Below are positions 31,809 through 34,343 of a stretch of 64,000 nt of DNA, in pieces (within the stretch, counting starts at the first letter, position 1; each line of letters opens with the position of its first letter). The stretch is from the NCBI RefSeq assembly GCF_006546625.1, contig NZ_VIAR01000006.1:1-64000 (forward strand), given 5' to 3'. The notes below the pieces were generated by a model. The model had not been told where the DNA came from. It saw only the letters and a list, made by a program, of their open reading frames with translations, and searched no databases. This DNA is from Haloflavibacter putidus (GTDB taxonomy: Bacteria > Bacteroidota > Bacteroidia > Flavobacteriales > Flavobacteriaceae). Made by a program: the position numbers and the translations under genes.

Positions 31809-32693
31809 TTAAATGTTTCTTGGATGTGCATTTTTATAGATTTCACTAAGCTCTTTTATATTATTATGGGTGTACACTTGCGTGGAAGCTAAACTAGAAT
31901 GCCCTAATAAATCTTTTACTGCATTTAAATTTGCGCCTTCATTTAAAAGATGAGTAGCAAAACTATGTCTTATTATGTGCGGACTTTTTTTTACTTTACT
32001 AGAAACCCTCGAAAAATAATTATTTACAATTCTATACACCAAAGTCCCGTAAAGTTTTTCACCTTTTTTGGTTAGCAGAAAATACTCAGCCTTTGTTAGG
32101 TTTTCTATTTCCTTTCTCTTATCTAAATACACTTTTAAAATCTCTATAGAAGAAGAAAGGAGAGGTACAATGCGTTCTTTATTGCGTTTACCATAAATTT
32201 TTATTTGGCGTGCAGCTATATCTACATCTGTTAATTTAATGTTTATCAATTCTGCACGTCGCATTCCCGTAGAGTAAAGCAACTCTACCACTAACCTATC
32301 TCGCCAATCTTCGAAACTTTCTAAAGGTATTTCTTGTATTGCATTTTGAATTTCTTCTACCGAAAATGGAGTCTGAATACGCTGCGCCACCTTAAGAGCT
32401 TTATGTTTATTTAACGGAGAGACGCTAACTTGTTTGGTTTTAAGTAAAAACTTGTAATAGGTCTTTAAGGAAGATATTTTTCGGTTAATGCTCCTATTGG
32501 AAGTTTTCGCATCGGAGAGATGAACAATATAACTTCTAATTAAAGAGTAGCTAACTTCTGTTAGGTTGGTTTCTTCAAAATTATCTTTTATAAAAGTTGC
32601 AAATTGTTGCAAATCTTTAATATAAGCCGTTACCGTGTGCACAGAATATTTTTTTTCGTACTGTAGATAATCTTTAAATTGAGAAAAGTCCAT
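31809..32693 (-). CDS. xerC: Tyrosine recombinase XerC-like
   Basis: A 294-residue tyrosine recombinase for chromosome dimer resolution. The N-terminal SAM-like domain (FKDYLQYEKKYSVHTVTAY) precedes the catalytic domain with Arg in GMRRAELINI, HIIRHSFATHLL (His and Arg), GHSSL (second His) and the nucleophile Tyr in TQVYTH. Position between rpsU and the tRNA-tuf operon matches other Bacteroidota, so this is the housekeeping enzyme rather than a mobile-element integrase. The hpf gene often seen just downstream is missing. The ATG directly follows the U-tract of the rpsU terminator. Confidence 0.93.
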   Translation of the reverse strand: MDFSQFKDYLQYEKKYSVHTVTAYIKDLQQFATFIKDNFEETNLTEVSYSLIRSYIVHLSDAKTSNRSINRKISSLKTYYKFLLKTKQVSVSPLNKHKALKVAQRIQTPFSVEEIQNAIQEIPLESFEDWRDRLVVELLYSTGMRRAELINIKLTDVDIAARQIKIYGKRNKERIVPLLSSSIEILKVYLDKRKEIENLTKAEYFLLTKKGEKLYGTLVYRIVNNYFSRVSSKVKKSPHIIRHSFATHLLNEGANLNAVKDLLGHSSLASTQVYTHNNIKELSEIYKNAHPRNI

Positions 32694-32740
32694 AAAAAAA
32701 CGCTTACTTTACAAAGTTAGAAAACTTTACAAAGTAAGCG
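32694..32740 (-). terminator. rpsU terminator abutting the xerC start codon
   Basis: Long stem: CGCTTACTTT (32701-32710) with AAAGTAAGCG (32731-32740), an internal mismatch, then AAAGTT/AACTTT. The seven-base U-tract (32700-32694) ends directly at the xerC ATG. The minus strand within the hairpin also reads TAACTTTG (32719-32712), a -7-like element that could drive xerC. Confidence 0.8.
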
Positions 32741-32761
32741 TATAATTATTTGCACAACCAA

Positions 32762-32956
32762 TTAAAAGTTATCTTGATCTCTTAAACTTTGCACATAGGT
32801 GGCTTTCTGTCGCTGCGCTCTTTTTACAACCGAAGGTTTAGAAAAAGTTTTACGCTCGCGCAATTCTTGTAGGGTTTTTGTACTGGAAAATTTTCGTTTT
32901 AAACGTTTTAACGCTCTTTCAATATTTTCTCCCTCTTTAACATGTATTTTTAACAT
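32762..32956 (-). CDS. rpsU: Ribosomal protein S21 (bS21)
   Basis: A 64-residue basic protein of the small subunit (MLKIHVKEGENIERALKRLK, then FSKPSVVKRAQRQKA). In Bacteroidota ribosomes bS21 helps bury the 16S anti-Shine-Dalgarno tail. Here the gene has a consensus promoter, a 35-nt leader and an exceptionally strong SD, fitting the autogenous control described for Flavobacteriia. Its own terminator follows the stop. Confidence 0.97.
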   Translation of the reverse strand: MLKIHVKEGENIERALKRLKRKFSSTKTLQELRERKTFSKPSVVKRAQRQKATYVQSLRDQDNF

Positions 32957-32963
32957 AGTTGTT

Positions 32964-32972
32964 TCACCTCCC
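32964..32972 (-). promoter_or_regulatory. Strong Shine-Dalgarno of rpsU
   Basis: Minus strand reads GGGAGGTGA, seven nucleotides before the rpsU ATG. No comparable SD was noticed before other genes in the window. Knowledge of Flavobacterium: ribosomes lacking bS21 expose the anti-SD and translate rpsU preferentially. Confidence 0.88.
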
Positions 32973-32994
32973 TTCGCTTAGAATTTTCAGGCGG

Positions 32995-33024
32995 CAAAAT
33001 TATATTTATTTTTCAAATTAACAA
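32995..33024 (-). promoter_or_regulatory. Consensus promoter of rpsU
   Basis: Minus strand TTG (33024-33022), 19-bp spacer, TAATTTTG (33002-32995). The predicted leader is about 35 nt and contains the SD. Confidence 0.75.
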
Positions 33025-33083: not shown

Positions 33084-33149
33084 TTATTTCGCTGCAGGTT
33101 TGTACTCTTTCTTGTCGATGATCATTTTGGCGATAATTTCTAAAGGCAT
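33084..33149 (-). pseudogene. C-terminal remnant of a second acyl-CoA dehydrogenase
   Basis: Minus strand encodes LEIIAKMIIDKKEYKPAAK and stop, nearly the same as the last 19 residues of the intact enzyme next door (REIIAKMIIDKKEYKPAAR). The two stops are 90 bp apart and the homology covers about 57 bp. It is either the tail of a deleted tandem copy or a short terminal duplication; an ATG at 33149 would make only a 21-codon ORF, so expression is not expected. Confidence 0.8.
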
Positions 33150-33173
33150 TTTCGCCAAAACAATCAAAAAAAA

Positions 33174-34343
33174 CTAGCGCGCTGCCGGCTTGTACTCTTT
33201 CTTATCGATGATCATTTTGGCGATAATTTCACGCAAAATTTCACTAGTGCCACCTCCTATTGGACCTAAACGGCTGTCGCGTAACATTCTGGCTAGTGGA
33301 TATTCTTCCATATAACCATAACCGCCTAAAAATTGTAAGCAAGAATTTATGCCTTCATCCGCGATCTTGGTAGATAAAAGTTTAGACATACTGGCTTCTT
33401 TTACCACATAATGCCCCTCATCTAATTGTTTTGCTACGGCATAATTAAACTGCTTGGCCATTTCTACTTCGCTGGCAATATCTGCAATCTTATGGCGTAG
33501 AGCTTGAAACTTATCTATTGTTTTACCAAAAGCCGTTCGCTCAGACATATATTCTAAGGTATATTCTAAGGCATACTCGGTTCTGGCGTGGGCGTTAATA
33601 CCCATTATTAAACGCTCTAAAGCAAAATGTTGCATTATGTACGGAAAACCTTGACCTTCTTCTCCCATCAAGTTTTCTGCCGGAATTTCAACATCGTTAA
33701 AAGCAATCTCTCCGGTGTCTGAAGCACGCCAGCCCAGTTTATCTAATTTGGTTGCAGAAATACCTGGTGTATCTCTGTCTACCACAAAAATGCTCATTCC
33801 TTTGTTGCCCTTTTCAGGGGAAGTTTTTGCGGCTACTACCAAATAATCTGAATAAACGCCATTGGTAATAAAGGTTTTGGAGCCGTTTAAAATATACTTA
33901 TCTCCTTTTTTTACGGCAGTAGATTTCATACCGGCAACATCAGATCCGCCGAAAGGCTCTGTAATACAAAGACAGCCAATTTTTTCTCCGGTAATACTTG
34001 GCGCTAAATATTCCTTTTTAATGCGATCATCGCCTTCTTTGTTTAGGTGCGTCATAGCCAAATAGGCGTGCGCCCACATTGCGGCCGCAAAACCACCGGA
34101 ATTTATGCGTTGCAACTCTTCTAAGAAAATTACCGTGTAAAAAAGATCTAAATCTAAACCCCCGTATTCTTCTGGGTAGTTAAGGCCAAAATAGCCCATC
34201 TCACCAAACTTTTCCCAAATAAAACGTTCTATGGTTCCCGTTTTTTCCCACTTATCAACATACGGCACGACTTCTTTGTGTAAAAAATCTCTAAAGCTTT
34301 TTCTAAAATGCTCGTGCTCTTCTGTAAAATACGTACTGTTCAT
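33174..34343 (-). CDS. Acyl-CoA dehydrogenase
   Basis: A 389-residue FAD enzyme that forms a 2,3-trans double bond in acyl-CoA, passing electrons to ETF. Signatures: LCITEPFGGSDVAGM (FAD/substrate), FITNG, and the C-terminal LQFLGGYGYMEEYPLARMLRD with a catalytic Glu expected in the GGTSEILR region. Closest by feel to long- or medium-chain ACADs. It is transcribed leftward 94 bp after the HhH gene, and a duplicated tail fragment follows it. Confidence 0.94.
   Translation of the reverse strand: MNSTYFTEEHEHFRKSFRDFLHKEVVPYVDKWEKTGTIERFIWEKFGEMGYFGLNYPEEYGGLDLDLFYTVIFLEELQRINSGGFAAAMWAHAYLAMTHLNKEGDDRIKKEYLAPSITGEKIGCLCITEPFGGSDVAGMKSTAVKKGDKYILNGSKTFITNGVYSDYLVVAAKTSPEKGNKGMSIFVVDRDTPGISATKLDKLGWRASDTGEIAFNDVEIPAENLMGEEGQGFPYIMQHFALERLIMGINAHARTEYALEYTLEYMSERTAFGKTIDKFQALRHKIADIASEVEMAKQFNYAVAKQLDEGHYVVKEASMSKLLSTKIADEGINSCLQFLGGYGYMEEYPLARMLRDSRLGPIGGGTSEILREIIAKMIIDKKEYKPAAR

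Follow-up and report, generated by a model that had tools for sequence, protein, structure and literature searches.

bS21 autoregulation and related systems

In most bacteria, a strong Shine-Dalgarno sequence (SD) is the usual enhancer of translation. The gene of the ribosomal protein bS21, rpsU, is found beside the main sigma factor gene in the rpsU-dnaG-rpoD operon of E. coli. For the Flavobacteriales, work on the rpsU/bS21 system was reportedly also presented by Jha et al. in 2021.

For Flavobacterium johnsoniae, it has been reported that ribosomes without bS21 translate the rpsU leader better, and that ribosomes carrying bS21 use the SD of rpsU poorly (McNutt et al., 2023; PMC9976891). Here, reporters harboring the rpsU leader increased 3- to 4-fold when bS21 was cut, mutated at Y54 or depleted. 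The residue Tyr54 of bS21 stacks on A1534 of the 16S rRNA and the protein is essential in this organism (PMC9976891). Based on a pairing below -13 kcal/mol, the same report predicts autoregulation for ~80% of the Flavobacteriales. Where it lists extra bS21 copies, these are given for other phyla, not for Bacteroidota (PMC9976891). The autoregulated type of Bacteroidota is further characterized by an rpsU pairing that exceeds that of all other ribosomal protein genes, and by pocket residues in bS18 and bS6.

More than one bS21 per genome is described for Francisella, where ribosome heterogeneity is considered possible (PMC9578407; PMC13122176). Furthermore, bacteriophages encode bS21 proteins from SD-less genes, which carry an aromatic residue at position 54 (PMC9723584).

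The rpsU gene of Haloflavibacter putidus

Here, the window is the whole stretch of DNA analysed, 64,000 nucleotides of contig NZ_VIAR01000006.1 from Haloflavibacter putidus, whose genome comprises 2.92 Mb in 53 contigs. Its rpsU gene and the surrounding features are the following (class A is defined below):

31809..32693, minus strand: ORF, tyrosine-recombinase-like gene ("xer"), the downstream neighbour diagnostic of class A
32700..32741, minus strand: terminator-like hairpin of 19 pairs plus T run, separating rpsU from the recombinase gene, from a consensus scan
32762..32956, minus strand: rpsU of class A, ORF of 64 aa encoding bS21, residue 54 = Y
32957..32994, minus strand: leader region from promoter box to ATG, with a predicted 5' end only
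32964..32972, minus strand: GGGAGGTGA, the SD of the initial annotation
32965..32975, minus strand: extended SD GAAGGGAGGTG, 11 pairs with the own 16S tail, spacing 8 to the ATG
32995..33002, minus strand: -7 promoter box TAATTTTG (contains TANNTTTG), ending 38 nt ahead of the ATG
33022..33024, minus strand: -33 TTG, 19 nt from the -7 box
33174..34343, minus strand: ORF, acyl-CoA-dehydrogenase-like gene ("acd"), the upstream neighbour, used for the genus tree

Both neighbours are named from their sequence, and we take them to be a tyrosine recombinase and an acyl-CoA dehydrogenase. The product of rpsU matches the Pfam family Ribosomal_S21 (PF01165) with 62.7 bits at a cut-off of 27. The terminator consensus occurs three times in the region in comparison to a mean of 0.8 in shuffles, and the hairpin behind rpsU suggests a monocistronic transcript. 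Between acd and the rpsU promoter, additional partial copies of the 3' end of acd are present (window positions 33088-33240; L038:1187-1329), and such copies also appear as repeat matches in the genomes G161, G156 and G147.

The promoter has the form TTG-N19-TAATTTTG (TTG-N19-TANNTTTG), in which the box TAATTTTG presumably represents the Bacteroidota promoter consensus. Its position implies a predicted leader of ~35 nt, and the leader reads GAAAATTCTAAGCGAAGGGAGGTGAAACAACT-ATG. The promoter and the 35-nt leader that the initial annotation had put forward are therefore both in agreement with the sequence, the start site being a predicted one.

A strong SD, GGGAGGTGA, had been placed seven bases before the ATG, and this is confirmed by its position and by its single occurrence in the window. 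The helix is longer than had been stated, since GAAGGGAGGTG forms 11 continuous pairs, one of them G-U, with the own 16S tail (-19.8 kcal/mol by RNAduplex, 16S positions 1532-1544). This tail, taken from the single 16S match of the genome (L004), ends with GGAACACCTCCTTTCTAGAGC and contains the canonical anti-SD CACCTCCTTTCT. A scan of 63,976 25-mers of the window, taken every 2 bases on both strands, revealed seven that reach -19 kcal/mol; all seven overlap the SD of rpsU, which is thus the strongest site in the window. Seven further sites reach -13 kcal/mol, the best one -15.5. By shuffling the window, 0.15 copies of GGGAGGTGA are expected, and 15 of 100 shuffles contained at least one.

The initial annotation had described the organism as almost without SD sites. 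This is supported within a sample of 78 mechanically called ORFs of at least 100 aa from the window, L003 and L004, of which some are surely spurious and the starts are guessed. Here, the best pairing in the SD region was -6.9 kcal/mol, a single mock region reached -10.7, and the mean was -1.88 for SD regions vs. -2.27 for mock regions, so that SD pairing is no stronger than mock and no use of SDs by genes at large was seen in these 78 ORFs. Genome-wide, the pattern GGAGGTGA-N(2-11)-ATG occurs four times vs. twice for the reversed control, and the three matches other than rpsU precede frames of only 13, 25 and 27 codons. The rpsU pairing is the strongest with respect to the window and the 78 sampled ORFs, the genome-wide scan covering the exact GGAGGTGA pattern.

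A fold of the leader (CGCCU/AGGUG, -8.9 kcal/mol) would hide part of the SD, with CGCCU perhaps lying outside the transcript. As an SD-hiding hairpin it was rejected, since 35 of 200 shuffled sequences folded equally well (z -0.97).

Taken together, the gene in the window encodes a bS21 with Tyr54 and displays a pairing far below -13 kcal/mol, a canonical anti-SD, a housekeeping promoter and a short leader, which are the sequence features used by McNutt et al. (PMC9976891) for predicting bS21 autoregulation. It resembles the F. johnsoniae type in Tyr54, in an extended SD of 9-13 bp with a pairing below -13 kcal/mol (determined with free_scan in the published work and with RNAduplex here, which are not identical in scale), in the conserved anti-SD and in an SD-poor gene sample. 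With its extended SD, a known feature, the gene belongs to the rpsU type of the Flavobacteriales, and these properties support the fit with bS21 autoregulation that had been suggested for it. For the host organism, autoregulation is a prediction, which rests on published work in a relative, and the feedback presumably operates here as well.

A second bS21 gene without SD

A search of the host's own genome revealed two bS21 genes, the second one having been missed by the initial annotation:

G000:C33:226029-226220 (L002, L003:8027-8221): class B bS21 gene

Its product is 64% identical to the bS21 of the window, Y54 is kept, and the protein is identical to the bS21 of an uncultured Mesonia sp. 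An rpoD-like sigma-factor gene, which we take to be rpoD from its sequence, precedes the class B gene at a distance of 118 nt, and a GNAT-like gene lies on its downstream side. Its leader has a pairing of +0.1 kcal/mol, i.e., no SD, and no TANNTTTG box is found within 90 nt upstream of the start. The gene thus displays the hallmarks of class B, namely no strong SD, Tyr54 and an upstream rpoD. Due to this second, SD-less gene, the level of bS21 need not depend on the loop alone.

The location of class B next to the main sigma factor is similar to the E. coli operon; however, the order is reversed and dnaG is missing. In contrast to Francisella, the paralogs here differ in SD control and their hosts are SD-blind Bacteroidota. 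A palindrome upstream of class B (TTTAGGATAATCCTAAA) was considered and rejected, since in the numerous class B leaders showing it, it overlaps the last codons and the stop of rpoD (frame by eye). Within the open-access literature searched, the pairing of a feedback-controlled bS21 gene with an SD-less twin is undescribed for Bacteroidota.

Distribution of the bS21 classes

The search covered 149 genomes of the family and 16 of the genus, and the 253 loci fetched represent 238 distinct bS21 genes (15 repeats). In a protein tree, 148 of these fall into class A and 70 into class B, and the other 20 form a mixed group, class C. The support is moderate for these 64-aa proteins (SH-like values: A, 0.61; B, 0.79), and synteny and leaders agree with the division.

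The leaders separate the classes clearly: a pairing below -13 kcal/mol is found for 144 of the 148 class A genes, showing that the element is conserved, vs. none of the 90 others, 88 of which are weaker than -7. All energies were calculated for the host 16S tail, which does not apply to lineages whose tail differs, such as G147 and the Chryseobacterium group (PMC8710568). Moderate pairing outside class A is found for the class B leader of G131 (-9.8) and the class C leader of G101 (-10.2). The recombinase gene lies downstream in 143/148 class A vs. 0/90 other loci. Furthermore, a TANNTTTG box within 90 nt of the start is present for 147/148 class A, 11/70 class B and 2/20 class C genes (random window pieces, 5.9%), and 97 of the 148 class A genes have a TTG at 17-23 nt from the box. 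The four class A genes without strong SD (L172, L182, L246 and L255 of the genomes G003, G047, G078 and G112) belong to genomes of 1.6-2.2 Mb, suggesting that the circuit is dispensable in some lineages.

All 70 class B proteins contain Tyr54. In 45 of the 70 loci, rpoD lies upstream on the same strand, and for 26 of these 45 genes the rpoD stop is no more than 40 nt away, pointing to a joint transcript; for the remaining 25, no rpoD is present in the fetched flank.

On genome level, 142 of the 149 family genomes were classified, the others being G032, G052, G058, G084, G128 and G136 (single match) and G100 (no match); G136 was later found to contain class A and is kept outside the tally. Class A is the only bS21 in 71 genomes, 49 contain A and B, 11 A and C, three A and two C, three A, B and C, and five only B. 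Unlike the published rpsU system, a second SD-less bS21 is therefore found not only in the host but in 52/142 family genomes with both A and B, and class A is lost in five. Within the genus, 11 of 16 genomes contain A and B, four only B and one only A. Class C as sole bS21 was not observed among the classified genomes. Outside the family, two bS21 matches were found in 3/118 genomes of the order, two of these three with a contamination of 6-7%. All 15 order-draw genomes of genus g111 have a single bS21 copy. This genus is probably Flavobacterium, as judged from the near-identity of G111 to the 7jil chain, in which case the genus of the model organism would not show the second gene.

Of a set of 80 loci from named genomes, which is not independent of the family set, 61 were assigned by score to class A and 19 to class B. 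No class B locus pairs below -3 kcal/mol, and 55 of the class A loci pair below -13 kcal/mol. Among the other six, five carry titles of other Bacteroidota and one is an ambiguous locus of Lutibacter.

Proposed interplay of the two genes

We favor the reading, with a probability of roughly 0.7, that class A is autoregulated, and that class B supplies bS21 outside this loop yet closes the anti-SD pocket. Ribosomes carrying bS21 would keep the 3' tail of the 16S rRNA folded away and ignore SDs, while a 30S subunit lacking bS21 would expose the tail and pair with the 11-nt SD of the class A leader, resulting in more bS21. Class B would be made from its SD-less leader independently of the anti-SD, possibly together with rpoD. 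Since class B keeps Tyr54, its product should enter 30S subunits and hide the anti-SD; it would thereby lower class A translation, and class A would fill the shortfall left by class B. Incorporation of class B into ribosomes is suggested by the genomes in which it is the only copy found, and class B would then turn class A down. It is also conceivable that class B is not expressed, or that it serves only under certain conditions.

A different, less probable but still serious reading assumes two kinds of ribosomes with different mRNA preference, in which class B is no plain substitute for class A and might keep the anti-SD more accessible, so that translation of class A would rise instead of fall. 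The two consensus sequences differ mainly and consistently at residues 23-36 (KFDKTGTMRQLRSR in A, KHRNIKVMQNLRDN in B). The bS21 homologs of Francisella differ in their effect on gene expression (PMC9578407, PMC9976891), and phage and host bS21 are reported to differ at positions 21, 23, 25 and 28 (PMC9723584). However, the A and B consensus share Tyr54 and the YIQ-LRDQE tail, the part to which contact with the 16S tail is attributed.

Loss of class A and selection

Class B is the only bS21 detected in 5/142 family and 4/16 genus genomes, one of them in both sets, resulting in eight in all (G048, G156, G158 and G162 in the genus; G077, G121, G134 and G147 elsewhere). This suggests that class B is presumably able to do the bS21 job. 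In six of the eight, no bS21 is present between the adjoining acd and recombinase genes; G077 and G121 have their recombinase gene at a different location. The recombinase frame of G162 is broken. With regard to a possible decay of the anti-SD following the loss of class A, a 16S gene was found in four of the eight, with a readable 3' end in three: two are unchanged, and G147 (L465) has a changed flank, GGAATACCTCCTTTTTT, with the CCTCC core intact. A tree of acd (17 rows of this one neighbouring gene, two of three intended outgroups having no acd match) implies a minimum of two losses of class A within the genus.

These losses, which concern 4 of the 16 genus genomes, would fit to a relic, i.e., class A and its loop being on the way out and class B being the working bS21 of the lineage. 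A comparison of the host (G000) with the closely related G161 shows 34/192 nt and 12/64 residues to differ in class A, while for class B only 3 nt differ and the protein is identical. Furthermore, among the family genomes, the SD of class A pairs slightly less strongly in those that contain B (median -17.6, n = 52, vs. -18.1 kcal/mol without B, n = 85; p 1e-7, relatedness ignored). On the other hand, the SD (-19.8 kcal/mol), promoter and reading frame of the host class A gene are intact, both genes are kept in 11/16 genus and 52/142 family genomes, and class A is under purifying selection between G000 and G161 (dN 0.13, dS 0.56). The contrast in dS (0.56 for A vs. 0.09 for B) suggests a differing history or expression, not only relaxed selection. 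We therefore regard the relic as rather improbable.

The SD could also be a plain strong initiation signal, raising bS21 output without feedback, as is usual for strong SDs in most bacteria. This appears quite improbable, since in the sampled ORFs of the host SD pairing is no stronger than mock, and ribosomes with bS21 of F. johnsoniae use the rpsU SD poorly, the output rising upon loss of bS21 (PMC9976891). A chance match, to which the occurrence of GGGAGGTGA in 15/100 shuffles might point, is hardly credible, since the full pairing surpasses every other site of the window, stands at the right spacing before a bS21 gene and is shared as strong pairing by 144/148 class A genes, which refutes it.

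The favored reading, an autoregulated class A gene beside a class B gene outside the loop, can be extended to the family, although only tentatively, and we consider this extension doubtful. Commonly in Flavobacteriaceae, ribosomes without bS21 would produce class A as required, and class B would be made with or beside the housekeeping sigma factor, blind to this signal. The output of class B would set the need for class A and could shift the choice of mRNAs, tying ribosome make-up to rpoD; some lineages would since have given up class A, thereby losing the only gene for which use of the SD is known. On the published model, strains with only B should be without the only known target of bS21-free ribosomes. 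Relatives with A only, A and B, and B only occur naturally, and the published autoregulation model is thus testable by comparison.

Viral bS21 and class C

Like class B, phage-encoded bS21 is SD-less with an aromatic residue at position 54 (PMC9723584); unlike it, class B is chromosomal and often located behind rpoD. On viral contigs, 79 bS21 loci (L384-L462) were identified, one of them absent from the table, and the other 78 represent 35 distinct proteins. Their best score is to class C for 21, class B for 12 and class A for two, a tally biased against A since class B served as query, and no leader pairs below -6.7 kcal/mol. Class B might be of phage origin.

The 20 divergent bS21 genes of class C (L106, L158, L163, L166, L220-L235) are found in 17 genomes and have altered C-terminal tails; five lie just before and two just behind an rpoD-like gene.
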